From assembly GCF_013391475.1 (NCBI RefSeq), contig NZ_JACBAZ010000001.1:186001-250000 (forward strand): a stretch of DNA of 64,000 bases, in the 5' to 3' direction. The notes under the pieces are model-generated. The model saw only the letters and a list, made by a program, of their open reading frames with translations, was not told where the DNA came from and made no database searches. Shown here one piece after another: positions 39,873-56,385 of this stretch. The stretch's first letter is position 1; every line of letters begins with the position of its first letter. The stretch comes from Oceaniferula marina. GTDB lineage: Bacteria > Verrucomicrobiota > Verrucomicrobiia > Verrucomicrobiales > Akkermansiaceae. The translations under genes and the position numbers were made by a program.

Positions 39873-39996
39873 TCCGTCACCTTAAGCCATTTTTCTCAGC
39901 ATCGACAACCGATCGGCTGTGGACTTTTTTTTAGTCCATGATAATTTGTCTGAACTTCGGCTCCGATTTCGTACTTTGCTTGAAGAATTACCTGTG

Positions 39997-41067
39997 ATGA
40001 GTGCATTTGAAAAACAGAGAGTCAGCGACCAAGTAGCAGAGGTTCTTTGCTCGAAAATAGGCAAGGGCGTTTGGCCGGATTATCTACCAAGCGAGAGATG
40101 GTTGAGTGATGAGTTCGGGGTATCCCGGGATCAGATACACTTCGCCATTCTGAAGTTGCGCGAGCGGGGAGTGATCGCATTGGAGAATCGGAAGAATCGG
40201 GTTCTCAGTTCCAATGAAGTCAAAAAAGGTTTGGATAAGGTGGTCGTGGTCACGCCGCATGGTTTATTGGACGCAAACCATGGATTTTTGTACTGTATTG
40301 ATCATCTGCGCAACGCGCTCGGTGGCAAGGGCGTGCCCCTCTATGTCGAGACCTCGTCAATGCTCGGAAAATCAGTACCTGACAAGCGCTTGAAAGAAGT
40401 GGTGTCGAGGCATCAGAATGCCGTTTGGCTTCTCCACCGGGCATCTCCTGAGGTGCAGCATTGGTTTCAGGACAAAGGACTTCAGGTTGTTGTCCTGGGC
40501 ACGGCGGCTGAGGGTGTGCATTCGCCTTTTCTTGATGTGGATCATACTGCTGCGGTTCGGCATGCTTTGGGCGTCATGAGGCGAGCAGGCCATACGCTGG
40601 AGCGGGTGTTGTTTTTGCGCCCATCAAATCAACTGGTCGGTGTGCGGAGCATGGAATTGGGATACCGGGCAGAAATGGCGAGCTTGGGGCTTGCCCCCTG
40701 TGCGGTATCATATCGAGATTACGATCGTGGTCTGGAGCAGAAGCTAAGCTCCCTTTTTTCCAATGCCTCGTTGATTGACGGCGTAGTGGTTACTTCATAC
40801 CGGGCCGCTATATTTACCTGTGGATGGTTAGCTGTTGAGAAAGGGTTGATCGTCGGGCGGGACCTTTCCTTGCTATGCCTTTCTGATGGGCCGGCACTGG
40901 CATTATTACACCCCTCGGTGGCGTATTATTCGATGCGTAGTGATCGTTTTTCCACGAAGCTGGTGAAGGTCGTAACTAATATACTGAAAGGTCGACTTGG
41001 CGAAGCTGTGCAAGTTCAATTGATGCCCGATTACGTCAAAGGCGATTCCATTTGCCACATTAGGTAG
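39997..41067 (+). CDS. GntR-family regulator with LacI-type ligand-binding domain
   Basis: 356 residues from the ATG at 39997; an in-frame GTG at 39919 would add 26 residues with no counterpart in the relative at 784. Residues ~5-75: winged helix, QRVSDQVAEVLCSKIGKGVW, then LPSERWLSDEFGVSRDQIHF. From ~80 on there is a LacI/periplasmic-binding sensor (VVVVTPHGLLD, VLGTAAEGVHSPFLDVDHTAA, ending in LMPDYVKGDS). Located divergently from the dioxygenase-creatininase-dehydrogenase set, so it probably controls that set in response to a small-molecule ligand. Paralogue in architecture of 784-1902. Confidence 0.85.
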   Translation: MSAFEKQRVSDQVAEVLCSKIGKGVWPDYLPSERWLSDEFGVSRDQIHFAILKLRERGVIALENRKNRVLSSNEVKKGLDKVVVVTPHGLLDANHGFLYCIDHLRNALGGKGVPLYVETSSMLGKSVPDKRLKEVVSRHQNAVWLLHRASPEVQHWFQDKGLQVVVLGTAAEGVHSPFLDVDHTAAVRHALGVMRRAGHTLERVLFLRPSNQLVGVRSMELGYRAEMASLGLAPCAVSYRDYDRGLEQKLSSLFSNASLIDGVVVTSYRAAIFTCGWLAVEKGLIVGRDLSLLCLSDGPALALLHPSVAYYSMRSDRFSTKLVKVVTNILKGRLGEAVQVQLMPDYVKGDSICHIR

Positions 41068-41170: not shown

Positions 41171-42718
41171 TTATTTCTTTAAGCTCTTTCTCAGCTCCGG
41201 GTAGTCAATTTTAGCATTGTGGCGTTTGTCCACGGGAATGTGCGTGACGTTTAGGAATGCTTCGACGGGGGAATGCGGAAGTTGAGATTGTAATGCCTCC
41301 TGCTGCTTATGCGTGAATTCTCCCTCAACGACCAGGGTGACTCGGCCTTGATGCATCAGAAGTGCACATCGACGAACGCTAGGAAAATTCGTGGCTGCGC
41401 ATTCGATGCCGAAGGGATAGATCGGGGACTGACCGGGGCTGTTGATGGCCGCGCTGCATCGACCCATCAGCCAGACCCGCCCGCTTTGATCTCTCCATGC
41501 AGCATCGCCCGTGCGATGCCATACGGTGGAATGATCGCTCAGAACGTGGATTTTACTTTCTTCGTTGCCTTGACCATGAAGATAGCCTTTGAGAACGTGG
41601 TCGCCGGTGACCACGATTTCGCCAATCTTGCCGTGAGGCAATTCAAGAGCATTGAATGCGGCCTCGTCCATCGGCCCGATTTCTTTTCCCGATTGATCTG
41701 GTATGATACGAAGTTGGGTAGCGCTGACGGGGTGGCCGACCAGCAGCCCTTTACCTGACACCATCTGATTCCGGTCATGTTCGGAGGTATCTTGCCAGCG
41801 AATGTGGGCAATGGGTTCTGCTTCTGTCGATCCAAAGACCGTGACCACTTGCATGCCGGGATGGGCGGATTGAATTTCACTGAGAAGGTCGGGGAAGACA
41901 GGGGCGCCGCCGGTGTAGATGGATGCGAATGCTGGCATCATCCGGTCCCTGTGAAGTTGGGTGAAAAAAGCAGGGGAGGCAGCACAGCGAGTCACATTGT
42001 GTTTGTTGCATTGATCAAAGACAGCTTGAGAGTCGACCCTAGCAGGATAACGTAAATCGGTATGGGCAATCACAGAGGTCAGTCCAGAGGCAAGGTTGGC
42101 CAGCGCAAAGACGGGGAGTGTGATGAGGTCGACCTCTCCGTCCTGCAAATCGAGCGATGCAGCGAGGGCCCTGTGCTGGGCCAGGAGGAAGCCGTGAGTG
42201 CGGCACGCGGCTTTGGGCATCCCCGTGCTCCCGCTGGTGAAGGTGATGAGTGCCGGGGTATCCGGGGCGGTATCTACTGGGGTTGATGGGGTGCTTGAGG
42301 TTGGTTTCCAAGCTTTACTGCTCGGCACCCAGCCTGAGCTATGATAGTGCTTGGGGATCTGACGTATCTCAGGAATGGTGATTCGGAGGAGGTGCGCTTT
42401 GCCTGTACCAATAAAGGCTTGTGCTTGATGAAGTGACAGACTGTTGCGGATCATTGTTTTGCCTGCCGAGGGGTCGATGAACATCACAGTAAGCCCGGAA
42501 TGGAATGCCGACAGCAAACTGATGTATAAAGGAATACTGACTGCTTGCAAAATCAGCACGGTATCGCCCGGCGATAGTCCGTCATGGCGTAGCTGATCCG
42601 ACCCACTACAGACGAGCTTGTAGAGCTCTGCATAGCTGACTGCACGCTCTGCATCAATGAGGGCAATACGGTCCGGGTGGAGCTCGGCTCTTCGGGCGAG
42701 ATGGGTGACTAAGTTCAT
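41171..42718 (-). CDS. AMP-forming acyl-CoA synthetase-like protein (ANL superfamily)
   Basis: 515 residues. ANL core motifs: TFTSGSTGMPKAACRTHG (ATP loop), VFGSTEAEPI, WHRTGDAAW and a C-terminal lysine in HNAKIDYPELRKSLKK. Activates a carboxylate as acyl-AMP and usually passes it to CoA or a carrier protein; substrate unknown. Last gene of the minus-strand isoprenoid/lipid-type operon, starting inside the stop of the GNAT gene (4-bp overlap). The domain order resembles enzymes such as OleC-type and fatty-acid ligases but no close family is claimed. Confidence 0.83.
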   Translation of the reverse strand: MNLVTHLARRAELHPDRIALIDAERAVSYAELYKLVCSGSDQLRHDGLSPGDTVLILQAVSIPLYISLLSAFHSGLTVMFIDPSAGKTMIRNSLSLHQAQAFIGTGKAHLLRITIPEIRQIPKHYHSSGWVPSSKAWKPTSSTPSTPVDTAPDTPALITFTSGSTGMPKAACRTHGFLLAQHRALAASLDLQDGEVDLITLPVFALANLASGLTSVIAHTDLRYPARVDSQAVFDQCNKHNVTRCAASPAFFTQLHRDRMMPAFASIYTGGAPVFPDLLSEIQSAHPGMQVVTVFGSTEAEPIAHIRWQDTSEHDRNQMVSGKGLLVGHPVSATQLRIIPDQSGKEIGPMDEAAFNALELPHGKIGEIVVTGDHVLKGYLHGQGNEESKIHVLSDHSTVWHRTGDAAWRDQSGRVWLMGRCSAAINSPGQSPIYPFGIECAATNFPSVRRCALLMHQGRVTLVVEGEFTHKQQEALQSQLPHSPVEAFLNVTHIPVDKRHNAKIDYPELRKSLKK

Positions 42719-43662
42719 GCTGGGGTAAAGTTCTTAGTCATCAGTGCGTAACGGCGAAACACTTCGGCCGAGAACCGTTGGCTAATGCGTAGGGATGAAT
42801 TACTTTCATACTGGAGGGCGTGGATCGCTTCGCTGTAACCCTTGGATTTTGCTTTTTGTTGCGCTCTGGCTACAAGCACGGTCCCCAGCCCCGAGAGTGT
42901 TCGGTCCGGAAGGGCTGCGAGGGTTTTGACGATGACAGCGGGGGCTTGTTGATATTTGTGGGCTTCCAGATCAGGGATGCAGAAGACATAACCGACGAGT
43001 TTGCCGTCGCGCTCGGCCAGTAAGATCAGTTCAGGATCGATGTGCTCTTGGGCCGACCTGTATTTTCCGACGAATGATGCTTGATCCAGTGGGGTGTAGA
43101 GAAAGTTGTTGGAAAAACTGATGAGGCTCAATCGAAAGATGGCGGTCAAATCTTCTTCGAACCGTTCAGGGCGGATACTACGGATTGTGACGCCTCGTTG
43201 CTCAAGGCGTTTTTCCAGGGATGGAAATGTCGGTTGGTCGGGGGTGAGTTGGATTAAGGATGAGGAATATTGGGATAGGATGGAGAATCCGGCTGCTTCG
43301 AATGTCGTTTTGAAATGTTCGGGTTCTTGTGGCTCCATGAGGAACGGGGGGCGGCCACTGGACTCGAGAACGAGTCGGTGTCTGAGCCATGTATTTCCAT
43401 TCATCGGTCCCACCACGGTAGAGCAGTGGTGGTATTGGTGAAGGTAGTCGGCGCAGTGGGAGAGAAATTCGACGGATGCGGGTGAGCTGTCGATGAGGCA
43501 CTCGCCGATGGTTCCAATGGGATGGCCTTGATGAATAGGTGTGTGATCAAACCACAGCCCGGCGGATAGGTCCCCATCACGGGCGATGACGCTTGCTCCC
43601 TGAGCAAAGATCGAGTCATAAGCAGAGGTTCCGTTCTTTTCAGTATGAGTGATGAATTTCAT
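42715..43662 (-). CDS. GNAT-family acyltransferase-like protein
   Basis: 315 residues starting at 43662 (MKFITHTEKNGTSAYDSIFAQG); the longer open frame upstream overlaps the kinase-like gene and reads as nonsense protein (His/Pro/Ser-rich), so it is rejected as N-terminus. C-terminal half is GNAT-like: ILLAERDGKLVGYVFCIPDLE, then TLAALPDRTLSGLGTVLVARAQQKAKSKGYSEAIHAL with the acetyl-CoA loop variant, and NSSLRISQRFSAEVFRRYALMTK. N-acyl or acetyl transfer to an unknown acceptor. 4-bp overlaps (ATGA) with genes on both sides show tight coupling. Confidence 0.78.
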   Translation of the reverse strand: MKFITHTEKNGTSAYDSIFAQGASVIARDGDLSAGLWFDHTPIHQGHPIGTIGECLIDSSPASVEFLSHCADYLHQYHHCSTVVGPMNGNTWLRHRLVLESSGRPPFLMEPQEPEHFKTTFEAAGFSILSQYSSSLIQLTPDQPTFPSLEKRLEQRGVTIRSIRPERFEEDLTAIFRLSLISFSNNFLYTPLDQASFVGKYRSAQEHIDPELILLAERDGKLVGYVFCIPDLEAHKYQQAPAVIVKTLAALPDRTLSGLGTVLVARAQQKAKSKGYSEAIHALQYESNSSLRISQRFSAEVFRRYALMTKNFTPA

Positions 43663-44966
43663 GATAGAATGACAAGTGTAATCAACATGTTGGCTATCGA
43701 TCCAATGGCGGCCAGCAGGCTGAGTTTGATCCAGTGATAGATTGTTGCTTGTCCGGTCGGTTCTCTCCAGTGAAAATAGAGCCATGCAAGAACTGGAGCA
43801 ATCAGAAGGACCGGGAGGTAGTGCTGCATGGGCACCTTGATGAATAGCGATGGGGTAAGTACCAGAACCGTGAGAAACATACCCGGCCACATGTTTGGTC
43901 GTTTTTGGTGAAGGTGCTTTTGAGTGCCCGTGTTCAGCATGTAGATAATGATGGCGAGAGTGCAGATGAAACCAAACTGGGACTCGGTGTAACCTAGGCT
44001 CTGGCCTCGTCCGAGCGTAAGCCAGGCAAGCGAGGGGATGGAAATGGCTAGAATCACATCGATGGAGTGGACGAACACTTGCTCCCTGGTGAGTCTGTGT
44101 TGCACGATAATGTGGCGGATGAATAAAAGGATCGTTGCTAGCAAACAAGGAATTCCTCCAAGAGTGAATGCTGCAAAGCTGTAAAGTAAGGCCGTGAGAA
44201 TGGCACCACCATTGAGGGTGTGTTTATGGTGGGTGGCTAGTAAGACGGCGAGTAGTATCATCAAAGCTGTGGAACGTATGAGCAGCTGATGACCCGATAA
44301 TCCAGTGTAGTAGTCCAGAAGTAGGAACGCCCCAATCGGGATGAGTAAGTTGTCGATTCCGTGTCCTGAGGCTCCTTCCACCGCTGTGGTGAACAGAGCG
44401 ATATTGAGCGCTAATAAGATGACCTGCGCAATGGGGAGGTGAGTCAAGGTGTAGAGGGGGAGAGCTGTGCAAAGAGCCGCGGTGATAAAGAAGGCAATTG
44501 AGCCTTCCAGCGTTTTACTTGCTCCGGCGGTTTGGTAGTATTGTTTGCCGAGCTTGCTTCCAGCCAATGCTCCAGCTGAATCGGCAAGCGTGAGGAGTAA
44601 TAACGAGATACAATACAGGACCGGTTGATCCCAACTTAATGTAAATAACCAAGCCACGGCGGCAGGGAAGAGTAATTCTCCAATTGAGAGGCGTTCTACT
44701 GAAAAGAGGGCTGATCCGACCGAGTTGCGAAGGTTACTGAGTCTGATAACGAGAAGCAAGATGACTGCGCTACAGGCCAGGATTTGCACCGCAAGCACTG
44801 ATTGAAACAACCATGGGAAGCTGAGGCAGATGAACCCCATGCCGATATGTACAAGCTTACGTGCACTCTCGGGGCATAGCTTGCCCGACCTGCGGCCCCA
44901 AGTTGCCAATAGGAGAATGACTCCAAGCAAACTTATGGTGATCAATATGGAAATGGTAGGGGGCAC
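43659..44966 (-). CDS. Dolichol/phytol-kinase-like integral membrane protein
   Basis: 435 residues with roughly 12 hydrophobic segments. The first ~210 residues carry the polyprenol/phytol kinase pattern: ARKLVHIGMGFI, LTLADSAGALAGSKLGKQYY, SKTLEGSIAFF and AVEGASGHGIDNLLIP. These CTP-dependent kinases phosphorylate isoprenoid alcohols. After ~240 (HHKHTLNGGAILTALLYSF, then TLGGIPCLLATILLFI) it resembles the start of DUF92/VTE6-type proteins, which act on phytyl phosphate, so it may be a two-step kinase fusion; this second part is uncertain. Overlaps the GNAT gene by 4 bp and is 4 bp from the DUF3419 gene. Confidence 0.75.
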   Translation of the reverse strand: MPPTISILITISLLGVILLLATWGRRSGKLCPESARKLVHIGMGFICLSFPWLFQSVLAVQILACSAVILLLVIRLSNLRNSVGSALFSVERLSIGELLFPAAVAWLFTLSWDQPVLYCISLLLLTLADSAGALAGSKLGKQYYQTAGASKTLEGSIAFFITAALCTALPLYTLTHLPIAQVILLALNIALFTTAVEGASGHGIDNLLIPIGAFLLLDYYTGLSGHQLLIRSTALMILLAVLLATHHKHTLNGGAILTALLYSFAAFTLGGIPCLLATILLFIRHIIVQHRLTREQVFVHSIDVILAISIPSLAWLTLGRGQSLGYTESQFGFICTLAIIIYMLNTGTQKHLHQKRPNMWPGMFLTVLVLTPSLFIKVPMQHYLPVLLIAPVLAWLYFHWREPTGQATIYHWIKLSLLAAIGSIANMLITLVILS

Positions 44967-44970
44967 GGAG

Positions 44971-46080
44971 TTAGCTTTTGGTGTGGACGGATTCTTCTAC
45001 GATGAAGGCTGAGTAAAAGAAGGCCTTGTCTTCATGAAAGAGCGACTGGCTTAGTTCACCGAGAGCTTTGAGCTTGCTCGCCATCTGACTTGGTCGTGAC
45101 CGGGGTGCCAGCATGTTCCAGTAGGCTAGACGCGCGCCATGCGAGCTTCCTGAGTGAATCCTTTGAAGGAGACTTTCCGTGTTGTCTTCAGACATATATT
45201 CAAAAATATCGCTGAGGTTGAAAGCATCGTATATTTGCTCGGGGTCATTGAGAACGGCTTCCAGCGGTCGGGGGTCGATCGTGACACGATCTAAGTTCTC
45301 CCGGATGGTGTTGAAGTTTTCCTCGCGTAATGCATGAGGGAGTGCGGTCCCGTATCGGCCCATGAGAATCCACTGGAGGTAGGGGTTCTTTGCGGGCTCG
45401 AGTGTGACTAATGCATGGCGTGTTCGCATCAGGATGCGGTCAGCGACAGATCCTTCCACGTACTTGAAAAATGCCGGGTCTCGTCCGAGGCGCCCCATGA
45501 CAAAGCGGGAAAAGAATAACTTAAACAGAAGCCTCCAGCGCCAAGTGTTCCACTTCTCTTCATAGAAGGCATTGCGATCCCTTGCCGATTTAGATGTCAG
45601 CAGCTCAGCCGTGTGCTTGTATGAATGCACCCAGGGCAAGAACTTGTCGCGGAACAGCGTGAAGTAGTTTTCAAATTTTCCAGCTCGGCCAAACCCATTT
45701 TGGATGTGTTCGTGAAAATGATGCCAATACTCCTGGGTTGTCGAATCAAGGTCAGGGAGACACTTTTGATAGAGCTCGACTCGCTCCTCGGGCGTAGCAT
45801 CGAGTTCTCCTAGAAGGGTTAGAAACTGCTTGTGGCTGAGACATTTGTAGGCCGCGATGCGCAACTTGATACAGGAAACCTGAGCGGGGTTCATTTCCGA
45901 GATGGTCACCTTGCGAGCACCTGCAGCAAGCAAAGAAAATGAGTTATCCCCAGCTGAGCCAATACTCAGACAATGGCGGCCTTCTGGTTGTAGCGCGCGA
46001 ATCAGGATATCAGCATCCTCCCAGCAGTTTGCATAGCGAACATGGTTGAAGTCGGCATGTTGTTGGATTTCAGATTGCAT
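44971..46080 (-). CDS. BtaA-like DUF3419 protein (aminocarboxypropyl-transferase family)
   Basis: 369 residues. VRYANCWEDADILIRAL, then CLSIGSAGDNSFSLLAAGA and VTISEMNPAQVSCIKLRIAA form the SAM-binding part of DUF3419 proteins; the family type enzyme, BtaA, moves a 3-amino-3-carboxypropyl group from S-adenosylmethionine to diacylglycerol in betaine-lipid synthesis. C-terminal part (DAFNLSDIFEYMSEDNTE, ARLAYWNMLAPR) also fits. No BtaB N-methyltransferase partner is visible nearby. The acceptor here may instead be an isoprenoid alcohol, given the neighbouring genes; this is speculation. Confidence 0.82.
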   Translation of the reverse strand: MQSEIQQHADFNHVRYANCWEDADILIRALQPEGRHCLSIGSAGDNSFSLLAAGARKVTISEMNPAQVSCIKLRIAAYKCLSHKQFLTLLGELDATPEERVELYQKCLPDLDSTTQEYWHHFHEHIQNGFGRAGKFENYFTLFRDKFLPWVHSYKHTAELLTSKSARDRNAFYEEKWNTWRWRLLFKLFFSRFVMGRLGRDPAFFKYVEGSVADRILMRTRHALVTLEPAKNPYLQWILMGRYGTALPHALREENFNTIRENLDRVTIDPRPLEAVLNDPEQIYDAFNLSDIFEYMSEDNTESLLQRIHSGSSHGARLAYWNMLAPRSRPSQMASKLKALGELSQSLFHEDKAFFYSAFIVEESVHTKS

Positions 46081-46109
46081 GAGGGTGGAATTTACGGATA
46101 GTGCTGTAT

Positions 46110-48644
46110 TCAGGGCTTAGGGTTGAGAAGTTTGACTTCACCGGTGCTTCCGTTCATTTCTATCAGATCCCCAGATTTGAGGATGGTGGTAATGCTGCGA
46201 ATGGAGACGACACATGGGAGTTGAAGCTCACGAGCTACGATGGCGGAGTGAGAAAGAAGTGAGCCCCGCTCAACCAGAAGGCCTGATGCCGCAGGGAAGA
46301 GCACGACCCAGCCTGGGTCCGTCTGCTGAGCTACCAGGATTTCTCCTTCTTGAAGCGTGACGTTTTGAGGATCGGTGACGACACGGACGACCCCTCGCAC
46401 GACCCCCGGGCAGGCTCCAGTGCCCTGAATGGTATTCTCATCCATTGGTGAAGTCCCGGTAGCGCTGCGGGTGGGTGAAAATGACGAGTAATGTTCAAGA
46501 GGTCCTCGAGTTTCAAACCGATCAGGTGGTGGACAAGTAAACGATGCTTGTTCCAGCTTCCTTGATTCGATAGTCGGGCGAAGCGCTTCAACAGACGTGG
46601 TGTTTTCATAGACGCCCATGACTTCGGAGATCGTGAGAAAAAAAACGTCACGCGGGGTGGCTATGTGGTTTTCGCGATGAAGCCGCTTACCGAGTTCGAC
46701 GATGATTTGACGGACCCTTCCAAAGAGGCGAGTGCGTTCAAATCGTAGATTCTCGCGGTCGCGCACACGATCTTTTGTGTTTTTGAGAACCCAAAGAAAC
46801 AGCTTTCGTTTGATGCCGGATAGTGACTTGGTAACATCGGCAACCGGTTCTGGTGACTGATTGGGCGTGGATGATGCCATACGATCGCTCTGGTAACGTT
46901 GAGCCATGACTCCGATGCTGGTGAGTAGCGATTGGGGGTTGTCGCCGACGGTGGGTGACTCCAGTTTGAGTTCTTCCAGACAGCGGTCGCCGAAGTCTTC
47001 GAGGTAGCTGACGAATGCTTGATAGATCGGGGGGCTGCTTCCTAGGGCTGTGAGCTTTTCATCGCTGCTGAAATCCGGGCAGGCTAGGATTTCTGTGAGC
47101 TTGTTGTCATCGGCGCACAGCTCTGCCATTGCGAGGATTCGTCTGGGTGGCTCCGCACTGATGATTTCTCCGGCGTCGATGAGTAAGGTGTTTTGCAGAG
47201 TGCCATCACCAAGCCATTTTTCACAGAGTGATTTTAAGACACCGTAGTAAATCATAGCAAAAAAATCATTGATGAGTGGAGCGTCCCACCGCTTGAGTAA
47301 TTGCGACTCCAGATCCCGGTAATGACCTGCGAGCTCGCACCCATTCATTTCGGTGAGTGGTTTTGGTTGGGACTCCAGCGCCTTGTTGAGTCGCAGGTAG
47401 AAAGCGTCACACTGCTTTTCCAGTGATCGATGGTTTTTGATCAGTCCGATGAATGTATGGATTAAGGCCGCGGCGTCTTTGATCTTGGTGGTCTGCGTCC
47501 TGTGGAGGATCTCCTGAACGACTTCGTCGGGCATGGGTTCCTTGACCCCCATCATCTGTTCCATAAACGATCGGTTGACGGTGAATCCGGGTAGCATGGC
47601 CAGCACATGATACCAGCTGTTCAGATTGTAGTAAACGTGGCCATGGATGTGTCCAAGCATGTTAGGGAACACTTCGCCGTTATCCGCGATACGTTGTTTC
47701 GGTACCGAGAGTAAGGTGCAGAACTCACGGTAAACATATTCATAGGCACGCTCCGCAAATGAAAATGTCATTGGCGAGGTGATGCCTGAGTAACTTTCGG
47801 CAATGTTGCTGTTATCCCAGACCGTCAGAGGTAAGGCGGGGTCGGGGGTGTGGTCGAGTGTGGTGATTGGCCGACTTTGGAGTAGATACAGCGTCCCTTG
47901 TTCATACGCCCATTCAATGTCCTGTGGACAGTTGAAATACGTGGCACATCGCCGGGCCATGGTCGCGACTTCGATGAGTTGGTCTTCTGTGAGGCAGGGG
48001 ATGTGACGTCTTTCTGGTTCTACTTTTTCAAGTGACACTCCTTCGTCGCTTTTGCTGCTGGCGGTGTGTTGATGGACCTTGTCGGCAATCTTGCTGTCTA
48101 CAATTTTGTTGTTCCGGTCCAGACTCCATACATCGGCGTCAGCTTCCCCAGAGACGAGTGCACTGCCGGTTCCCCATAGCCCGGAAACTAAAACGTGATC
48201 TCTGCTGCCCGTTACAGGGTCGGCGCTGAATGCCACTCCACTGACCTCGGGGGTGAGCATGCGTTGAACCAGTGCGGTCGGGCAGTCAACTTCATCGATA
48301 TGTTTACTCGATTGATAGGTTTTGAGGTGCTCGCTCTGGTCGCTTTGTTGTACACGTTCAATTCTATCGAGAAGGTCATCGTGTTGGACGTATAGAAAGG
48401 TGTCATACTGTCCGGCAAAGGAATGCTCCGAGCCATCTTCTCCCCGGGCCGATGATCGCACAGCATAGTAGCTGCATGAAAGACCCTTGGCCGTGGTGAT
48501 GATGTCATCAGGATCGCAGGGGTGTCCTGCGGTAACTGCAAACCATGGCGGTATGCGGCAGCCTGTTTCCTTAAGGAGCGCGAGAGCCTTGGCTTTTCCT
48601 CCCAGCAACTCGTAATACTCAGTTTGGTGAGGGTGAATGATCAT
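46110..48644 (-). CDS. PEP-synthase/rifampin-phosphotransferase-like protein
   Basis: 844 residues in the order of PEP-utilising enzymes: an ATP-grasp part at ~1-265 (GGKAKALALL, YYAVRSSARGEDGSEHSFAGQYDTFL, EVSGVAFSADPVTG, DIEWAYEQGTLYLLQSRPI), a long middle domain (~270-720) including RENLRFERTRLFGRVRQIIVELG, and a swivelling domain with His799 in GSLLSHSAIVARELQLPCVV. The size and middle resemble rifampin phosphotransferases and related phosphotransferases rather than true PEP synthases, so it may phosphorylate a hydroxyl on an unknown small molecule. Overlaps the UbiA gene by 4 bp. Confidence 0.8.
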   Translation of the reverse strand: MIIHPHQTEYYELLGGKAKALALLKETGCRIPPWFAVTAGHPCDPDDIITTAKGLSCSYYAVRSSARGEDGSEHSFAGQYDTFLYVQHDDLLDRIERVQQSDQSEHLKTYQSSKHIDEVDCPTALVQRMLTPEVSGVAFSADPVTGSRDHVLVSGLWGTGSALVSGEADADVWSLDRNNKIVDSKIADKVHQHTASSKSDEGVSLEKVEPERRHIPCLTEDQLIEVATMARRCATYFNCPQDIEWAYEQGTLYLLQSRPITTLDHTPDPALPLTVWDNSNIAESYSGITSPMTFSFAERAYEYVYREFCTLLSVPKQRIADNGEVFPNMLGHIHGHVYYNLNSWYHVLAMLPGFTVNRSFMEQMMGVKEPMPDEVVQEILHRTQTTKIKDAAALIHTFIGLIKNHRSLEKQCDAFYLRLNKALESQPKPLTEMNGCELAGHYRDLESQLLKRWDAPLINDFFAMIYYGVLKSLCEKWLGDGTLQNTLLIDAGEIISAEPPRRILAMAELCADDNKLTEILACPDFSSDEKLTALGSSPPIYQAFVSYLEDFGDRCLEELKLESPTVGDNPQSLLTSIGVMAQRYQSDRMASSTPNQSPEPVADVTKSLSGIKRKLFLWVLKNTKDRVRDRENLRFERTRLFGRVRQIIVELGKRLHRENHIATPRDVFFLTISEVMGVYENTTSVEALRPTIESRKLEQASFTCPPPDRFETRGPLEHYSSFSPTRSATGTSPMDENTIQGTGACPGVVRGVVRVVTDPQNVTLQEGEILVAQQTDPGWVVLFPAASGLLVERGSLLSHSAIVARELQLPCVVSIRSITTILKSGDLIEMNGSTGEVKLLNPKP

Positions 48645-49525
48645 AGTGGCTGGGTGATAAGGGGAATGATCCCCAGTGAAAGATAAAGAGCGAGTGTCCA
48701 GACTCCGGAAATGAGTTCAAAGGTCTTCGACGGTGTCCGGTGGGCGTGTCGGGTATGTTTGAACGCCCATAACAGCAGAAGACAAAGGACGATGAAAACG
48801 GGCACCGCAAAATGCACGAAGCTAGCCGCGATCACGGCGAACACCGTGGTGCTCAACAAACAGCCAAACCAAACCCACGCGGCGGTTTGTTGCCCCCATA
48901 GTTTACTGTAAGTAGGCACACCTGTTTCTTCTCCACCGGCTTGGCGTAGCTTGCGTCCGATCTCAATGACCAATCCGTTGCAAAAACTGGCAGCTAGAAA
49001 AAAAACGAGCCCGCCCCATGGTTTCTCACCACTGGGAAGCCAATGGCAGGCCGTGGCATAGAAATCCACGATCGGCATGATCAGCATGTGAGTCCAGAGA
49101 TAGGTGACGGGGCGGCTTTTGAGCCAACCCCGAGCAAAAAACTCCACACTCATTAGAGCCAGATATGCCCAGGCAATCACGAGGACAATCACGAGTGCGG
49201 GCGCGTAGGCCCAGGCAATCACGAGCTGGATGATGGCTGCAATCACAAAGATGACACCAAGCTCTGAGAGCTTGACCAAGCCTCTGGGCACGGCGCGATG
49301 GGGCCGATAAGTGGCATCCTCCTCGGCATCTTTGAATTCATCAGCGATTCTCAGTTGAAGAAAAAACAACAGACAGGTGACAAAGGCTATGGCAAAAGTT
49401 TGCCACACTGGCGGCGCCCCTGTCAGCATCGAGGAATAGGCCACAGCACAGGAGCTAAACGCGGCGACGAGAGGGCCGTGCTGGAAAATAGGGAATCGTT
49501 CTTTCTGGTAGGTCCACCAACGCAT
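48641..49525 (-). CDS. UbiA-family prenyltransferase-like membrane protein
   Basis: 294 residues, about eight transmembrane segments. At residues 59-80 RIADEFKDAEEDATYRPHRA matches the first Asp-rich motif of UbiA enzymes (normally NDxxDxxxD; here DExxDxxxD with Asp66 and Asp70), followed by VPRGLV as in the family. The second Asp-rich site is replaced by VIEIGRKLRQAG. It should transfer a prenyl group from a diphosphate to an acceptor, or be a variant with changed diphosphate binding. The start is 73 bp after the HMG-CoA reductase stop, and it overlaps the phosphotransferase-like gene by 4 bp. Confidence 0.8.
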   Translation of the reverse strand: MRWWTYQKERFPIFQHGPLVAAFSSCAVAYSSMLTGAPPVWQTFAIAFVTCLLFFLQLRIADEFKDAEEDATYRPHRAVPRGLVKLSELGVIFVIAAIIQLVIAWAYAPALVIVLVIAWAYLALMSVEFFARGWLKSRPVTYLWTHMLIMPIVDFYATACHWLPSGEKPWGGLVFFLAASFCNGLVIEIGRKLRQAGGEETGVPTYSKLWGQQTAAWVWFGCLLSTTVFAVIAASFVHFAVPVFIVLCLLLLWAFKHTRHAHRTPSKTFELISGVWTLALYLSLGIIPLITQPL

Positions 49526-49598
49526 ACTAGAGTTATAATAGGGGACGTTGCATTTATGAAATCGATTGTTTTTTTATATTTATCGTTTTTGTTGATGT

Positions 49599-50855
49599 TT
49601 ATCTTGCGAGTTTTCGATGAGCTCGTGTGAAGTCACCTGTGGCAAGAGCCGCAATAATCGAGAGTTCACCACCAAGTAAAAGCCCTGCACATACCTCGGC
49701 GAGTGCTCCGCTGTGCCCTGATCCGTAAAGCCCCATGAGTTCCAAGCTGGCTTTTTGGCTCGGTAATCCGGTGCCTCCGCCGACCGTGCCCACCATAACA
49801 CTGGGGAGACTGACCGAAGCGTATAGATCCCCATCATCCGTTAATTCAAAGCGGGTGACTCCAATCGCAGATTCCGCGACACATGCCGCATCTTGACCAG
49901 TCGCAAGATAGAGCGCCGCTAATCCATTGGCAAAGTGGCCATGCACCCCCATGGTGCCGCTCAGCACACCGCCAATGGCGGACATCTTCCAGTAATCCGT
50001 CATTTGTTTGGGGGTGGTGTGAACGTATTTTTTTAGAATATGGGCAGGGATGAGAACTTCAGCTGAAACTTTTCGCCCCCGCACAGAGGTATATGCCTGA
50101 GCACTGGCTTTTTTGTCTCCTGAGAGATTGCCTTCAACATAGAGTTGTTTGATAGTCACCGGGCAGTTAGATTCGATGAAATCGCAGACCGCTTGAGTGG
50201 CGATGGTAACCATGTTCTGCCCCGAGGCGTCACCTGTGGTAAACTCGAAATTGAGGTAAACGTGATTCCCTTCGACGGTCGTTCCTACATCGACAAGTTT
50301 ACCGTGGTTTGTGGTGCCGTTGGCCACTTCTTGAAATTGTTCGAAAGATTCCATCGCCCATACGACAAACCGTCCGGCAGAAATAATGGAATCGAACGCA
50401 AAGGCCGGTGAGCGGTTGACTGCTTGGTAGAGCAACATCGCCGTGCAACCTCCAGCCGCGGAGATCATACAGGCACCCCGGTGGTAGCTTGCAACCAATG
50501 CTGCTTCTGATGTTGCGAGAGGTAGCGGGTAGTCGCCTTGGGCATAAAGCCCGTTGACGCGAAGTGGTCCGGCCACACCGAGCGGAATCTTGACCGAGCC
50601 TATACAATTTTCAATATTACCATCAAAGGATTCGGCATTTGCCGACGTCCAGTCGTCGAGTAAATCCGGATGAGGAGCCTTTCCCATCCCTTTCCAAAAG
50701 CGTTGAACCCGCCGTTGGCTTACGGTTGAATGGGGAAGGTAATGTTTTGCTGGAGGCGAAGTCTTTGGGGTCAGTTGACGTTCCAATGATTCTAGATCCT
50801 GATGGTCTAAGAGTGATTTGAGGTGCGCATTCGTCAGAGATCGTTTGCCAGCCAT
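49599..50855 (-). CDS. Hydroxymethylglutaryl-CoA reductase, class I-like
   Basis: 418 residues. All catalytic residues of HMG-CoA reductase are present: Glu117 in LATSEAALVASYHRG, Lys248/249 in GNLSGDKKASA, Asp322 in ATGQDAA and His413 in TRAHRKLAR; ENCIGSVKIPLGVAGPL, GTMGVHGHFAN and GTVGGGTGLPSQ are family signatures. It reduces HMG-CoA to mevalonate. The catalytic domain has no membrane anchor. Most Verrucomicrobiota make isoprenoids by the MEP route, so this gene at the head of an operon with prenyl-lipid-type enzymes suggests a dedicated mevalonate supply. No other mevalonate-pathway gene is in the window. Confidence 0.9.
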   Translation of the reverse strand: MAGKRSLTNAHLKSLLDHQDLESLERQLTPKTSPPAKHYLPHSTVSQRRVQRFWKGMGKAPHPDLLDDWTSANAESFDGNIENCIGSVKIPLGVAGPLRVNGLYAQGDYPLPLATSEAALVASYHRGACMISAAGGCTAMLLYQAVNRSPAFAFDSIISAGRFVVWAMESFEQFQEVANGTTNHGKLVDVGTTVEGNHVYLNFEFTTGDASGQNMVTIATQAVCDFIESNCPVTIKQLYVEGNLSGDKKASAQAYTSVRGRKVSAEVLIPAHILKKYVHTTPKQMTDYWKMSAIGGVLSGTMGVHGHFANGLAALYLATGQDAACVAESAIGVTRFELTDDGDLYASVSLPSVMVGTVGGGTGLPSQKASLELMGLYGSGHSGALAEVCAGLLLGGELSIIAALATGDFTRAHRKLAR

Positions 50856-51086: not shown

Positions 51087-51977
51087 CTATTTAACAAATC
51101 GTTTTTCGATCAGTTGGAGGGGGGCACTCTCAGGGGGCGCACTTGAGATACCCATAAGGGCGTATGTGAGCTTGGCTGCTGTGTAGGAGCAGGAGTGGAG
51201 CTCTTGTTTTGGAGCGAGTTCGACGATGTCGAGGCCGACGATGTGGCGGTTTTGGGCGATGTTTCGACAGATATCGAGAGCTTGCCACCAGAAAAGGCCT
51301 CCAGGCTCGGGGGTTCCGGTAGCGGGCATGAGGGAGGCGTCGAAGGCGTCGATGTCGAATGTGAGGTAGAGGTTGCGGGGGAAGTCTTCGGGAAGGATGG
51401 TTATGGGTATGCCGTTCTGATAGATGGCCTCGGCATCAAGAAAACCGATATGGTGCTGTTTGCGGTAGTTGATTTCCTCTTTGCAGAGGTTACGGATGCC
51501 GATTTGAAAAATAGGGATGCCTAGTTCGTGAATGCGGCGCATGACACAAGCGTGGCTGTTGGGGTTACCTTCATAGGTGTCCCGGAGATCGGCGTGGGCA
51601 TCGATCTGAATAACACCGAAATCTTGTCGGGTAGCGTGGAGGGCGCGGACTGGGGCAATCGAAAGGGAATGTTCTCCTCCGAGTGTGACTGGTATTTTTC
51701 CTGTCTGATAGGCTGAGCGACAGGCTACTTCGAGGTTTGAGAAACAGGATTCGTCATCTCCTGAACAGTCAATAGCCTCCGAGGTGTAGATCCCTAGTTC
51801 TCCAGGGTATGATGTGCCATCATAGGCTTCAAGTTGGTAGGATGCATCAAGAATAGCTTGAGGACCCAGTGCCGTGCCCGCACCGTAGGACACGGTTTGC
51901 TCCATCGGCATGGGAATGATGTGGAACAAGGCGTCTTCGGGAGATGACTGAGGAAATTCAGAAGAAAGAAAGTGCAT
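51087..51977 (-). CDS. speB: Agmatinase (arginase/ureohydrolase family)
   Basis: 296 residues. Binuclear manganese ureohydrolase: GGEHSLS, IQIDAHADLRDTYEGNPNSHA and LTFDIDAFDASLMPATGTPEPGG hold the His/Asp ligands. VSYGAGTALGPQAILDAS is the usual N-terminal block. In this operon, with arginine decarboxylase and the carboxyspermidine enzymes, it should split agmatine to putrescine and urea. Last gene of the four-gene polyamine operon; 37-bp gap to nspC. Confidence 0.88.
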   Translation of the reverse strand: MHFLSSEFPQSSPEDALFHIIPMPMEQTVSYGAGTALGPQAILDASYQLEAYDGTSYPGELGIYTSEAIDCSGDDESCFSNLEVACRSAYQTGKIPVTLGGEHSLSIAPVRALHATRQDFGVIQIDAHADLRDTYEGNPNSHACVMRRIHELGIPIFQIGIRNLCKEEINYRKQHHIGFLDAEAIYQNGIPITILPEDFPRNLYLTFDIDAFDASLMPATGTPEPGGLFWWQALDICRNIAQNRHIVGLDIVELAPKQELHSCSYTAAKLTYALMGISSAPPESAPLQLIEKRFVK

Positions 51978-52014
51978 CGATAGTTAATGTGAGGTGTTTG
52001 GTAGAAACAAGTGC

Positions 52015-53184
52015 TTACGAGAGTCGGTCACGATAGTCTTCGTAGGTGAATTGGCGGTCGATGATGACTTCGTCTGTTTGATGGTGATAGCGGCCAATAG
52101 CGGGGTGGTCGACGCCGTTGAAATGATTGGTTTTGACCATCGAGTAATGGGCCATATCGGTGAAGACGAGTCGATCACCTACTTTGAGATCTTCATCAAA
52201 CGACCAGTCACCGATGACGTCTCCTGCAAGGCATGTGGTGCCACCCAGGGTAATGGTATGTTTTTTTTCTCCAGGATCACTAGCTCCAAGGATTTCCGGA
52301 CGGTATGGCATTTCTAACACGTCTGGCATATGTGCCGCGGCGGAAGTGTCCAGAATGGCGATAGGGTGACCGTCTGAATTAAATCGATCAATGACACGGG
52401 TGATGAGAAATCCGGTATTGAGCGCCACCGCTTCTCCCGGTTCGAGGTAGACTTCGAGGTCGTAAGCGGCGCGGAGGTGCTGGATGAGTCTGACCAGTCG
52501 ATCCGTATCGTAGTCGGGACGAGTGATGTGGTGGCCTCCTCCGCAGTTCAGCCATTTCATCGTTTGAAGATAGGTGCCAAACTTGGCTTCGACGTGTTCG
52601 AGGGTGCGTTCGAGCGTATCGGAATTCTGCTCACACATGGTGTGGAAGTGGAGTCCGTCGATGCCTTCAAGGATGGATGCGTCGGCATTTGCCAAATCGG
52701 TAGCAGTGATACCAAAGCGTGACCCTTTACGGCAGGGGTTGTAGATGTCAGTTTCGACTTCTGAGTATTCTGGATTGATGCGGAGTCCGAAGGATGCGGT
52801 TGTCTCCGGTTGGTTGACGTGGTGTTGGAATCGTTGCCATTGGCTCAAACTGTTGAGGGTGATATGATGGCAGTGTTTCCGGAGAAAATCCATTTCAGGA
52901 TCACGGTAGGCAACACAGTAGGCGTGAACTTCACCCCCAAACTTCTCCATGCCGAGTCGTGCTTCACTGAGTGAACTGGCAGTGGTACCACAGAGGGTTT
53001 GAGATATCTGTGGGAAGGTGGACCACATCGCGAAGCCTTTGAGGGCAAGGATGATCTTCCCCCCGGATTCTTGTTGGACATGGTCCAGAATTTTGAGGTT
53101 TCGCGCCAGCAGGGATTCATCCATGAGGTAGCATGGGGTGGGAACCTCGTCTCGCTGGCTGATCTCTAGAATAGAATGTGACAT
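52015..53184 (-). CDS. nspC: Carboxynorspermidine/carboxyspermidine decarboxylase
   Basis: 389 residues. PLP-dependent alanine-racemase-fold decarboxylase of the NspC type: Lys49 in KIILALKGFAMW forms the Schiff base, GLRINPEYSEVETDIYNPC and GSRFGIT are the characteristic block, GLHFHTMCEQ and WLNCGGGHHITRPDYD bind PLP, and LEPGEAVALNTG follows. It decarboxylates carboxyspermidine (or carboxynorspermidine) to the polyamine, the last step of the alternative spermidine route. Located 39 bp after the dehydrogenase gene. Confidence 0.92.
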   Translation of the reverse strand: MSHSILEISQRDEVPTPCYLMDESLLARNLKILDHVQQESGGKIILALKGFAMWSTFPQISQTLCGTTASSLSEARLGMEKFGGEVHAYCVAYRDPEMDFLRKHCHHITLNSLSQWQRFQHHVNQPETTASFGLRINPEYSEVETDIYNPCRKGSRFGITATDLANADASILEGIDGLHFHTMCEQNSDTLERTLEHVEAKFGTYLQTMKWLNCGGGHHITRPDYDTDRLVRLIQHLRAAYDLEVYLEPGEAVALNTGFLITRVIDRFNSDGHPIAILDTSAAAHMPDVLEMPYRPEILGASDPGEKKHTITLGGTTCLAGDVIGDWSFDEDLKVGDRLVFTDMAHYSMVKTNHFNGVDHPAIGRYHHQTDEVIIDRQFTYEDYRDRLS

Positions 53185-53223
53185 CGCGCTGTTGTGTCAA
53201 AGAAGCTCTTGCCTGTCCTTAGC

Positions 53224-54441
53224 CTAGGGGTTGTGTTTTTGAAGCTGCTCTAAAAAGGGTGCGCCATCAACTACCTCCCAAGGAAGACCATATTGGTTCA
53301 GAGCCTCCATAAATGGATCGGGGTCGTTTTGCTCCATATTGTTTACGCCGGGCTTTTTCCAATGACCATCGAGAATCATTTTAGCCCCAATCATGGCAGG
53401 AACGCCCGTGGTGTAGGAAATCGCTTGGGACTGAGTTTCCGCATATGCTTCTTGGTGATCACATACGTTGTAGATGTACTTTTGCAGACGCTTACCATCT
53501 TTGACACCGTCAATCACACAACCGATGCATGTTTTCCCTTTGGTCAGTGGCCCGAGCGAGGCAGGGTCAGGAAGAACGGACTTGAGAAACTCAAGAGGGG
53601 CGATTTGTTGGCCTTGGAAATCGACCGGTTCAATCGACGTCATCCCCACGTTTTGCAATACGGTGAGGTGGTTGATGTAATTCTTGGAAAACGTCATCCA
53701 GAATCGGAGTCGGGTTACGCCGTTGAGGTTTTTGCAGAGTGACTCCATTTCCTCATGGTAGAGGAGGTAGATATCTTTGGTTCCAACCTCGGGGTGGGGG
53801 AAATCGAATGCTTGGTGGATCTCCAATGGTTCTGTTTCCTTCCATTCTCCTTCTTGCCAGTAGCGTCCTTTGGCTGTGATTTCGCGAATGTTAATTTCTG
53901 GATTGAAGTTCGTGGCAAATGGGAGTCCGTGATCCCCGGCGTTGGCATCGATGATATCGACGGTGTGGATTTCATCGAAGAAGTGTTTCTGGGCATACGC
54001 ACAGAAAACATTGGTGACTCCAGGGTCAAAGCCTGACCCAAGTAAGGCTGTTAGCCCGGCATCAACAAATCGGTGGTGATATGGCCATTGGTATTCGTAA
54101 GAAAAACGAGGGTCGTCCTTCGGCTCATAATTGGCAGTGTCGAGGTAGTCGACACCGGCTTCAAGACACGCTTCCATGAGTGTGAGGTCTTGATAGGGAA
54201 GGGCTACATTGATCAGGATGTCGGGTTTGATTTGGTTGAGGAGTGCTACGGTGGCCGCTACGTCATCGGCGTCGATGGCGACGGTGTCAATCGGGTAGTC
54301 AATCTCGGCTGCGATACAATCGCATTTAGATTTTGTGCGTGATGCGAGTGTGATTTTTCCAAAGGTTTCGGGGAGTTGTGCGCACTTATGGGTGACAACT
54401 CGACCTACGCCGCCGGCTCCGATAATGAGTGTGGATTTCAT
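53224..54441 (-). CDS. Carboxynorspermidine/carboxyspermidine dehydrogenase
   Basis: 405 residues, saccharopine-dehydrogenase family. N-terminal Rossmann start LIIGAGGVGRVVTHKCAQ and a DYLDTANYEPKDD block; GLTALLGSGFDPGVTNVFCAYAQKHFFDEIHTVDIIDANAGDHG is the signature of the carboxynorspermidine synthase branch. It reductively joins putrescine (or diaminopropane) with aspartate semialdehyde. Gene order speA, this gene, nspC, speB with 21-39 bp gaps makes one operon. Putrescine as substrate, hence carboxyspermidine, is inferred from speA and speB. Confidence 0.9.
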   Translation of the reverse strand: MKSTLIIGAGGVGRVVTHKCAQLPETFGKITLASRTKSKCDCIAAEIDYPIDTVAIDADDVAATVALLNQIKPDILINVALPYQDLTLMEACLEAGVDYLDTANYEPKDDPRFSYEYQWPYHHRFVDAGLTALLGSGFDPGVTNVFCAYAQKHFFDEIHTVDIIDANAGDHGLPFATNFNPEINIREITAKGRYWQEGEWKETEPLEIHQAFDFPHPEVGTKDIYLLYHEEMESLCKNLNGVTRLRFWMTFSKNYINHLTVLQNVGMTSIEPVDFQGQQIAPLEFLKSVLPDPASLGPLTKGKTCIGCVIDGVKDGKRLQKYIYNVCDHQEAYAETQSQAISYTTGVPAMIGAKMILDGHWKKPGVNNMEQNDPDPFMEALNQYGLPWEVVDGAPFLEQLQKHNP

Positions 54442-54462
54442 AATGGGTAGATGGGTAATGAG

Positions 54463-56385
54463 TTAAGTGTTGGGTGATTCGTAATAGGTATAGCCCGCAA
54501 TACTTTCTCGGTAAGAGTCCATGATTTGACGGCGCTGACTGGGGGTGATTTTCCCTTCTTCGACCGAGCGCTCCGCAAGGCTTCGGAAGCGTTCAACAAG
54601 GTTTTTTGTGTCGTATTCTACATAGGACAGAACATCGGCAATGGTGTCACCGGCAAGTTCGCGGCGGTATTGCACCTTGCCATTTTTAACCCCGACACTG
54701 ACAACGTTGGTGTCGCCGAGCAGGTTATGCAGGTCCCCCAGGGTTTCTTGATAAGCGCCAACAAGAAAGACGCCAAGAAAGTAATTTTCATGATCGTTGA
54801 GTGGGTGCAATGGAAGATGATCCTGATGCTCACCCTTGATAATGAATTGGTCGATCCGGCCATCGCAGTCGCAGGTGATATCCGCTAGAGTGGCCCTGGC
54901 GGTAGGTTCTTCGTTCAAGCGATGAATCGGCATCACCGGGAAAAGCTGGTTAATAGCCCACGAGTCAGGGAGCGATTGAAACAGGCTGAAATTGCCGTAG
55001 TAGACATCACGGAATGGATTGCCCTCTGCGAGGGCTTCAGGTGCTTGTTCCATGGTGTCTGCGATCTCGTGAATGCGAGTCATGATTCGCGTGAAGAGAG
55101 AGTTGCAATAAGCGCGTTCACGGAGAGAAACGTTTCCGTGCCTGAAGAGAGAAAGGATTTCCTCTCGGTAGTAGATAGCGTCATTATAACACTCCTGAAG
55201 ATTAGCTTCCTCTAGATAGCCTTCGACCTCGCTGAGCTTCATCGTATGGGGGTGCGGCTTTTCTGGTATTCTATTCGGGATCGAATCGGCAGATGGACTA
55301 TTGACATCCAGGATGTTAAAAATCAGGACCGAGTAGTAAGCGGCAACAGCCCGACCTGACTCACTGATGATTGTGGGGTGATTGAACTGGGCTTCGTCAC
55401 ACACGGTTTTAACCACCTCTACGATATCAGCGGCATACTCTTGAATCCCATAGTTTCGGCTACTGTGGCTATCACTCCGTGACCCGTCGTAATCGATCCC
55501 TAAACCACCGCCGATATCAAGCAAGCCCATGGTAGCCCCCTCATGAATGAGGTCGGTGTAGATGCGTGATGCTTCCGTGGCGGATTCGCGGATTGATTGA
55601 ATATCGGGAACTTGGGATCCCTGATGATAGTGGAGGAGGCGGAGTGTATTCAGCATGCCGTGATCCCGCAGTGTGTCCACCGTATTCAAAATCTGATTGG
55701 TGGTGAGTCCAAAAACGCTGTTCTCCCCACTGGAATGTGACCAATGACTATTGTTGCATGTCGAAAGTTTGGCTCGAACTCCCAACATGGGCCGAACTCC
55801 GAGTGCTACCGAGCGCTCTAGAATGAGGTTGAGCTCGCTGGGCATTTCAATCACCAAGATGATTTGTAGTCCCATCTTGGTACTTTGCAGGGCAAGGTCA
55901 ATAAACTCCTGATCTTTGTAGCCGTTGCAGATGATGTAGGCATCAGGATCATGCATATAAGCCAAAGCTGCAAGAAGTTCAGGCTTGCTGCCGGCTTCTA
56001 ACCCGTAGTGATACAGCTCGCCAAATTGGGTGATTTCTTCGATGACCTGCTGCTGTTGATTGACCTTGATCGGGTAAACACCCCGGTAACACCCTTGGTA
56101 GCCTGATTGAGTGATCGCCGAATTGAACGCTATGTTGAGGTTGCGAATCCGGTCGGCAAGTAGGTCGTGAAAACGGAGTAATAACGGGGTGTCAAGACCA
56201 CGTTCTCGGATACCATCGACAATATCAGGCAGACTGACAGCTGTCTTTTGATCTTCATCGTGAAGGTGGACATGCAAATGGCCATTTTCAGAGATACTAA
56301 AAAAATCATTGGCCCAGTTGTCGACCCCATACAGCTCGTTTGACTGCTGGGTATCCCATGAAACTTGGTTTGATGGCTTGTTCAT
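54463..56385 (-). CDS. speA: Biosynthetic arginine decarboxylase
   Basis: 640 residues, full length for SpeA. Lys107 in GVYPIKVNQQQQVIEEI binds PLP; MLGVRAKLSTCNNSHWSHSSG, VPDIQSIRESATE and LLDIGGGLGIDYDGSRSDS are family blocks, with VISESGRAVAAYYSVL near the middle. Converts arginine to agmatine in the cytoplasm. First gene of the polyamine operon; its 163-bp upstream region is shared with the divergent rimK-like gene. Confidence 0.93.
   Translation of the reverse strand: MNKPSNQVSWDTQQSNELYGVDNWANDFFSISENGHLHVHLHDEDQKTAVSLPDIVDGIRERGLDTPLLLRFHDLLADRIRNLNIAFNSAITQSGYQGCYRGVYPIKVNQQQQVIEEITQFGELYHYGLEAGSKPELLAALAYMHDPDAYIICNGYKDQEFIDLALQSTKMGLQIILVIEMPSELNLILERSVALGVRPMLGVRAKLSTCNNSHWSHSSGENSVFGLTTNQILNTVDTLRDHGMLNTLRLLHYHQGSQVPDIQSIRESATEASRIYTDLIHEGATMGLLDIGGGLGIDYDGSRSDSHSSRNYGIQEYAADIVEVVKTVCDEAQFNHPTIISESGRAVAAYYSVLIFNILDVNSPSADSIPNRIPEKPHPHTMKLSEVEGYLEEANLQECYNDAIYYREEILSLFRHGNVSLRERAYCNSLFTRIMTRIHEIADTMEQAPEALAEGNPFRDVYYGNFSLFQSLPDSWAINQLFPVMPIHRLNEEPTARATLADITCDCDGRIDQFIIKGEHQDHLPLHPLNDHENYFLGVFLVGAYQETLGDLHNLLGDTNVVSVGVKNGKVQYRRELAGDTIADVLSYVEYDTKNLVERFRSLAERSVEEGKITPSQRRQIMDSYRESIAGYTYYESPNT

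Follow-up and report, generated by a model that had tools for sequence, protein, structure and literature searches.

Textbooks treat 3-hydroxy-3-methylglutaryl-coenzyme A (HMG-CoA) reductase (HMGR) as the marker of the mevalonate pathway, and it is the enzyme that statins target. In the salvage of phytol for tocopherol a phytol kinase (VTE5), VTE6 and an enzyme of the UbiA superfamily (VTE2) are involved, and two Asp-rich motifs are typical of that superfamily. In the betaine-lipid pathway BtaA is described as an aminocarboxypropyl transferase (PMC10491745). HMGR, UbiA and BtaA-like (DUF3419) proteins are encoded together in a stretch of DNA from Oceaniferula marina (assembly GCF_013391475.1, contig NZ_JACBAZ010000001.1, positions 186,001 to 250,000), of which the whole 64,000 nucleotides are called the window here. 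Seven genes on the minus strand span positions 41171-50855 of the window, in the transcription order HMGR (starting at 50855), UbiA, phosphoenolpyruvate (PEP)-dikinase-like, DUF3419, PolK, GNAT and ligase (ending at 41171):

49599..50855, minus strand: HMGR, a class I HMG-CoA reductase paralogue, 418 aa (PF00368, HMG-CoA_red, 1.8e-110; structure 6hr7, 1.1e-88)
48641..49525, minus strand: UbiA-superfamily membrane transferase, 294 aa (PF01040, 8.3e-13)
46110..48644, minus strand: PEP-dikinase-like phosphotransferase/ligase, 844 aa (PPDK_N, 9.7e-53; PEP-utilizers, 5.5e-23)
44971..46080, minus strand: DUF3419 (BtaA-like) protein, putative 3-amino-3-carboxypropyl transferase, 369 aa (PF11899, 1.4e-62)
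43659..44966, minus strand: PolK, an integral-membrane, CTP_transf_1-like candidate lipid-alcohol kinase (phytol/dolichol kinase-like), 435 aa (a weak basis: family members and fold)
42715..43662, minus strand: tandem-GNAT acyltransferase, 315 aa (Acetyltransf_1, 1.9e-7)
41171..42718, minus strand: ANL-superfamily acid-activating ligase forming an acyl-adenylate (acyl-AMP) or acyl-CoA, 515 aa (AMP-binding, 2.3e-47)

The intergenic distances are, from HMGR to ligase, +73, -4, +29, +4, -4 and -4 bp, i.e. three overlaps of 4 bp and one gap of 4 bp. The overlap at the GNAT gene requires that its start is set at 43662 (315 aa), and a longer open reading frame (ORF) with a TTG start was discarded. 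The seven ORFs, their positions, overlaps, gap and families had been proposed in an earlier reading of the sequence (the original prediction) and are borne out by the present analysis; the soft spot is the polyprenol-kinase-like protein, as PolK of the window has no Pfam match over the cut-off. We lean towards the view that the seven genes form one horizontally spreading biosynthetic operon for a membrane-associated lipid, equipped with an HMGR that reduces something other than HMG-CoA. In its fuller form this would be a lipid pathway not described before that hops between phyla, with a neofunctionalised HMGR acting on a non-HMG acyl-CoA and with a new class of aminocarboxypropyl-headed lipids as product, a possibility that we put forward more tentatively.

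A search with PolK yielded matches in 24 of 387 Verrucomicrobiota genomes, and 20 stretches around these matches were compared. All seven families were found in eight of the 20, in two gene orders: HMGR-UbiA-dikinase-DUF3419-PolK-GNAT-ligase (the window's family and genome G012) and HMGR-DUF3419-PolK-GNAT-ligase-UbiA-dikinase (G159, G318 and G132). Further loci, named below by their L numbers, were selected with the DUF3419 alignment as the best 80 of at least 550 confirmed relatives (at least 587 pattern matches); counts on these named loci apply to close relatives only. With profile models, and after removal of minus-strand matches and of ligase and GNAT matches of at most 120 and 40 bits, respectively, all seven families were present in 44 of the 80 (single-sequence searches counted fewer), and in 20 of the 29 loci flanked on either side by over 3 kb the seven-gene order was identical. 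The original prediction of an undescribed lipid-type operon is thereby upheld as regards a conserved and apparently undescribed gene set: the idea that the order is kept in no relative clearly fails, given the two orders in the Verrucomicrobiota and the 20 identical loci. A chance grouping was rejected on the basis of this order and of the genome-wide co-occurrence described below.

The submitter titles assign the named loci to the Verrucomicrobiota, Planctomycetota, Pseudomonadota, Cyanobacteriota, Acidobacteriota, Rhodothermota, Deinococcota, Desulfobulbus, Gemmatimonadota, Armatimonadota and others. The carriers include Rubritalea, Methylomonas, Desulfobulbus and filamentous cyanobacteria, and several are cultured strains. 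A plasmid of the alphaproteobacterium Roseinatronobacter sp. S2 also carries the gene set, with PolK and GNAT annotated as hypothetical proteins and with an HMGR that appears as two pieces as it crosses the start of the record. At the other extreme, an operon-type DUF3419 gene in Leptolyngbya sp. FACHB-8 (L083:9471-10559, one of the 29 fully viewed loci) stands alone, the other six families being unrecognised in its 20-kb stretch. The tree of the DUF3419 proteins mixes phyla, its starred branches forcing at least two changes for the Verrucomicrobiota, at least four for the Pseudomonadota and at least three for the Rhodothermota, while the cyanobacterial rows need one. This mixing suggests horizontal transfer, with the caveat that attaches to metagenome bins. 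Mirror-tree correlations ranged from 0.54 to 0.87, calculated without correction for organism phylogeny.

The operon genes are functionally linked, beyond their linkage on the chromosome. Operon-type DUF3419 was found in 21 of the 387 genomes (445-586 bits; the remaining DUF3419 matches reach 81 at most) and the operon-type dikinase in the same 21, at E 1e-100 or better, the only range that this search reported and one that keeps weaker homologues out of view. Operon-type HMGR was present in 15 genomes, all inside the 21 (551-705 bits, against at most 288 for other matches). In G189 the dikinase, DUF3419, HMGR and PolK genes lie on four contigs (C49, C52, C63 and C80, respectively) and yet all are present; the stretches around DUF3419 and HMGR contain no other operon gene, save for a ligase match that is weak at 49.5 bits. 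The co-occurrence holds partly by construction, since the alignments A1 (DUF3419), A2 and A6 (dikinase) drew their rows largely from these same genomes; the genomes that did not serve as rows are G189 and G275 for A1, G189 for A2, and G004, G015, G168, G189, G275, G350 and G374 for A6.

We compared 69 distinct operon-type HMGRs (one from the window, 14 from carrier genomes including the unlinked one of G189, and 54 from named loci), taking as a reference the additional HMGR that each of six carrier genomes possesses (the second HMGRs), with human residue numbering, archaeal and yeast-type PDB alignments, and the list of HMG pocket residues given in PMC7503714. The equivalents of Glu559, Arg590, Asp690, Lys691, Lys692, Asn755, Asp767 and His866 are kept in all 69, among them the class I catalytic residues Glu559, Lys691, Asp767 and His866. 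Ser684, on the other hand, is Glu in every operon-type protein and Ser in all six second HMGRs. Lys735, which according to PMC9500038 forms a salt bridge with the terminal carboxylate of HMG, is Lys in all six second HMGRs versus Met (46), Val (15), Ile (3), Ala (2), Leu, Phe or Thr (1 each) in the operon type. The two positions of this rebuilt carboxylate site correspond to E241 and M291 in the HMGR of the window. Judged by these residues, the operon HMGR appears to have retained its chemistry and lost its grip on HMG, and it may well convert another acyl-CoA into an alcohol. Beside the retained Lys692, the new Glu may take the place of the carboxylate that the substrate lacks; alternatively, it may bind an amino group.

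The original prediction had assigned mevalonate formation to this enzyme and a dedicated mevalonate branch to the operon, in which the UbiA enzyme would draw on an isoprenoid pool of its own, fed by the HMGR. The retained catalytic residues agree with such a role, as does the finding that HMG-CoA synthase and MvaD (diphosphomevalonate decarboxylase) score over their cut-offs in the same seven of the 21 carrier genomes. The proposed check on the remaining mevalonate genes and on the methylerythritol phosphate pathway, however, came out differently on its two sides in the genome of the window (97% complete): IspH is present, whereas there is no match to HMG-CoA synthase and MvaD reaches only 21 bits against a cut-off of 171. 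IspH was found in 13 of the 21 carriers, the genome of the window among them, disjoint from the seven mevalonate genomes (G132 has none of the three genes), and seven of these 13 contain an operon-type HMGR. Moreover, six of the seven mevalonate-using carriers possess two HMGRs, one of the operon type and, elsewhere in the genome, one of about 280 bits; the seventh, G350 (89% complete), has a single HMGR. The simplest reading therefore leaves housekeeping to the copy that is not of the operon type. On genome content, second HMGRs and the HMG carboxylate site lost in all 69 proteins, the dedicated branch was rejected; we consider it very improbable.

A similar comparison bears on the second part of the original prediction, a betaine-like product. 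The DUF3419 protein of the operon shares the columns of the S-adenosylmethionine (SAM) site with distant DUF3419 proteins and differs from them in many of the invariant columns, among them the NLSDIFEY stretch close to the C-terminus. Operon-type proteins score at least 445 bits against 93-129 for distant DUF3419 proteins taken as whole ORFs, and by these criteria they form a separate subfamily. The operon protein is a putative aminocarboxypropyl transferase. The family match (1.4e-62) and the SAM-motif columns are also what synthesis of a betaine lipid, diacylglyceryl-trimethylhomoserine (DGTS), or of diacylglyceryl-homoserine with the remaining genes as helpers would predict, and in one locus a 230-aa protein with a methyltransferase domain is encoded just 3' of the ligase (L117:10892-11581, a Trueperaceae bin). 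Distant DUF3419 genes occur in 16 other Verrucomicrobiota genomes, and in nine stretches around such genes five of the seven Pfam-scanned neighbours were methyltransferases. A BtaB-type profile built from these five (cut-off E 1e-5) detects a partner in seven of the nine stretches, two of which were not used in building it, versus no ORF at this cut-off in 102 operon stretches (L027-L126, L147 and L148), the L117 protein being missed as well. In addition, G132 and G275 carry both types of DUF3419. Synthesis of a betaine lipid was consequently rejected on subfamily scores, type-specific columns and the missing BtaB-type partner, and with it the betaine-like product loses its support; its probability is, in our estimation, very small.

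The remaining proteins can be assigned with varying precision. The UbiA-type enzyme scores 48.6 bits in Pfam (cut-off 34.2) and has as its closest solved structures digeranylgeranylglyceryl phosphate (DGGGP) synthase (9.7e-5) and chlorophyll synthase. Its first motif, DExKDxxxD, is present in 65 of 66 ORFs from the named loci, and a second motif, ExxRKxR, replaces the usual Asp pair (ExxRK in 63 of 66). The dikinase-like protein consists of an ATP-grasp domain (PPDK_N, residues 58-266), a middle region and a swivelling His domain (PEP-utilizers, residues 765-835) with which the protein ends; a C-terminal PEP/pyruvate-binding barrel is absent from its Pfam domains. The motif SHxAIxxRE is found in 71 of 75 ORFs from the named loci. 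Its closest solved relative is 5fbs, labelled PEP synthase in the search, which we take to be rifampin phosphotransferase. Identity with either enzyme was rejected because architecture and scores misfit.

For PolK, three of 19 aligned members match CTP_transf_1 (best 2e-5), the window's own protein not being among them. The AlphaFold model (predicted local distance difference test, pLDDT, 96) resembles cytidine diphosphate-diacylglycerol (CDP-DAG) synthetase, with its CdsA-like fold, in a weak match (probability 1.00, but E 0.02, template-modelling score 0.24, root-mean-square deviation 9.6). Three motifs are strongly conserved in the set from the operons: RKxxH (69 of 69), KxxEG[ST] (65 of 69) and GxDN (68 of 69). 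Profile searches of the PDB with the PolK and DUF3419 alignments gave nothing useful. The AlphaFold model of the GNAT protein matches the tandem GNATs 7q3a and MshD (1ozp).

From these assignments we infer both the product and the order of steps. The HMGR paralogue would carry out a four-electron reduction of a non-HMG acyl-CoA to a primary alcohol, the simplest candidates for the substrate being 3-methyl-branched, isoprenoid-type or fatty acyl-CoAs, with a hydrophobic tail where HMG has its carboxylate. PolK, as a kinase dependent on cytidine triphosphate, and the PEP-dikinase-like enzyme would phosphorylate the lipid alcohol, after which the UbiA-type enzyme could move the activated chain onto an acceptor. 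The DUF3419 enzyme would use SAM as the source of a 3-amino-3-carboxypropyl group, which it adds. As a pair, the ANL ligase and the tandem GNAT would acylate the amino group with an activated acid. The product is likely to be lipid-like and is probably an amino-acid-headed lipid, and it may be prenylated, as the original prediction had it; the membrane-protein families to which two of the operon enzymes belong fit a lipid context.

Part of this scheme can be read in another way. Ligase, reductase, two phosphotransferases and UbiA make up a complete chain from acid to alcohol to phosphate to transfer, so the operon might salvage an external prenoic acid or prenol (e.g. the phytol of chlorophyll), which would be activated, reduced, phosphorylated twice and reused by UbiA rather than synthesised de novo. 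A prenyl tail would fit the residue at the Lys735 position, which is hydrophobic in most of the proteins, and VTE5, VTE6 and VTE2 offer an analogy. In the 29 fully viewed loci, however, the ligase pairs with the GNAT and not with the HMGR: both genes are present in 24, the GNAT alone in one, the ligase alone in none and neither in four. We read this joint coming and going as one acylation module. As DUF3419 and GNAT would, besides, be left without a role in plain salvage, this explanation seems unlikely to us, and we retain the biosynthetic operon for a membrane-associated lipid as the working model.

The genes added to the operon in some of the loci hint at a tailored and exported lipid. An MMPL transporter was found in three of the 80 loci (inside the operon in L072, and in L084 and L110; Pfam), a PAP2 protein in L105, and a P450 family in six, inside the operon or within about 2.7 kb of it:

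L067:14925-17410, P450 family (Pfam-checked), beside a sulfotransferase-family gene
L075:2436-5035, P450 family, beside a sulfotransferase-family gene (the latter Pfam-checked)
L104:2450-4902, P450 family, beside a sulfotransferase-family gene
L105:18266-19627, P450 family (Pfam-checked)
L090:15004-16392, P450 family
L111:2781-4040, P450 family

The sulfotransferase family thus accompanies the P450 in three of the 80 loci. In two loci from Verrucomicrobia (L095:4538-9914 and L109:4614-9925) three further genes are inserted between dikinase and DUF3419, coding for a class III aminotransferase, for another PEP-dikinase-like protein that is shorter than the first, and for a small SnoaL-like protein, the families having been Pfam-checked on L095.

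The neighbours also bear on the question whether the operon could be catabolic, with the HMGR working in reverse from alcohol to acyl-CoA and the set degrading a terpenoid or lipid. Class II HMGRs are degradative, and ligases and GNATs do occur in catabolic sets. The operon HMGR, however, scores higher with the NADPH-type model TIGR00533 (328 bits, short of its cut-off, 442) than with the degradative TIGR00532 (57 bits), and kinase, dikinase, UbiA and aminocarboxypropyl transfer would all cost energy. No gene of beta-oxidation was recognised among the seven neighbour families recurring in at least three loci (three of them Pfam-checked, most single neighbours being unscanned). We therefore give a degradative role very little credence.

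In the window itself, a polyamine gene set (51087-56385: agmatinase, carboxynorspermidine decarboxylase (nspC), a saccharopine-dehydrogenase-like protein and arginine decarboxylase) lies on the same strand, 231 bp upstream of the operon. Downstream, a GntR-type regulator with a LacI-like ligand domain (39919-41067) is convergent with the 3' end of the operon and is not obviously its regulator. A scan for promoters and terminators gave 6 and 11 sites, respectively, within one standard deviation (sd) of the numbers in shuffled sequences (7.9, sd 3.2, and 8.7, sd 2.9).

Several observations weigh against the proposed lipid pathway. The HMGR is dispensable: it is absent from six of the 21 carrier genomes (two of them, G004 and G275, fragmentary) and from six of the 29 fully viewed loci, four of which keep the ligase, so that a strict chain from ligase to HMGR is not required. 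We read the HMGR as a replaceable entry step, but no shared replacement reductase was seen among the 22 Pfam-scanned of the 80 ORFs beside or inside the operons; apart from MMPL, P450 and PAP2 these 22 belong to unrelated families (phosphatase PhoX, AAA proteins, a regulator and others). Allylic diphosphates are the substrates of those UbiA enzymes whose mechanism is known, and a reduced fatty acyl chain would not supply such a donor. Relatives of the PEP-dikinases can be ligases, such as PigC and RedH, instead of kinases, and the kinase assignment of PolK is weak. Finally, MMPL and P450 occur in a minority of the loci, and two larger recurring neighbour families, found in eight and seven loci, adjoin the operon in only one and none, respectively, which makes the neighbours alone thin evidence.

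The operon is real, widespread and apparently uncharacterised. Among the titles listed from the open-licence PMC literature, a scope outside which most subscription papers fall, none describes the gene set. The passages in PMC13001223 that deal with bacterial isoprenoid pathways do not mention an HMGR of the operon type, and PMC8470345 yielded nothing relevant. If our reading is true, the presence of an HMGR in a bacterial genome does not mean that the mevalonate pathway is present. A widespread HMGR subfamily with a rebuilt pocket would represent an enzyme activity that is new, and pathway calls made from genomes would have to be corrected; the operon would point to a lipid or lipid-like metabolite so far unseen in widely differing bacteria.

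Several described systems share features with the operon. The best NCBIfam relatives of the ligase are the PRK09274 ligases (356 bits, below the cut-off of 478) and the beta-lactone synthetase OleC (210 bits against 900); an olefin pathway was rejected for want of an OleC match over the cut-off, and Ole partner genes were absent among the scanned neighbours in the window. With Rph, PigC and RedH the dikinase-like protein has the ATP-grasp and swivelling His domains in common, but it scores far under the curated cut-offs (276 of 999, 300 of 1300 and 340 of 1350 bits, respectively). The BtaA/BtaB pathway shares the DUF3419 family and its SAM-site columns, whereas the operon has its own subfamily (NLSDIFEY), no BtaB-type ORF and other gene company. 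With phytol/tocopherol salvage the operon has in common a CTP_transf_1-like kinase candidate, a second phosphotransferase and UbiA; here the second phosphotransferase is of the PEP-dikinase type, and HMGR, DUF3419, GNAT and ligase have no counterpart. Finally, compared with the class I HMGRs (6hr7 and human HMGCR), the operon HMGR belongs to the same sequence family and keeps the catalytic Glu, Lys, Asp and His, but differs in all 69 proteins by the change of Ser684 to Glu and of Lys735 to a mostly hydrophobic residue.

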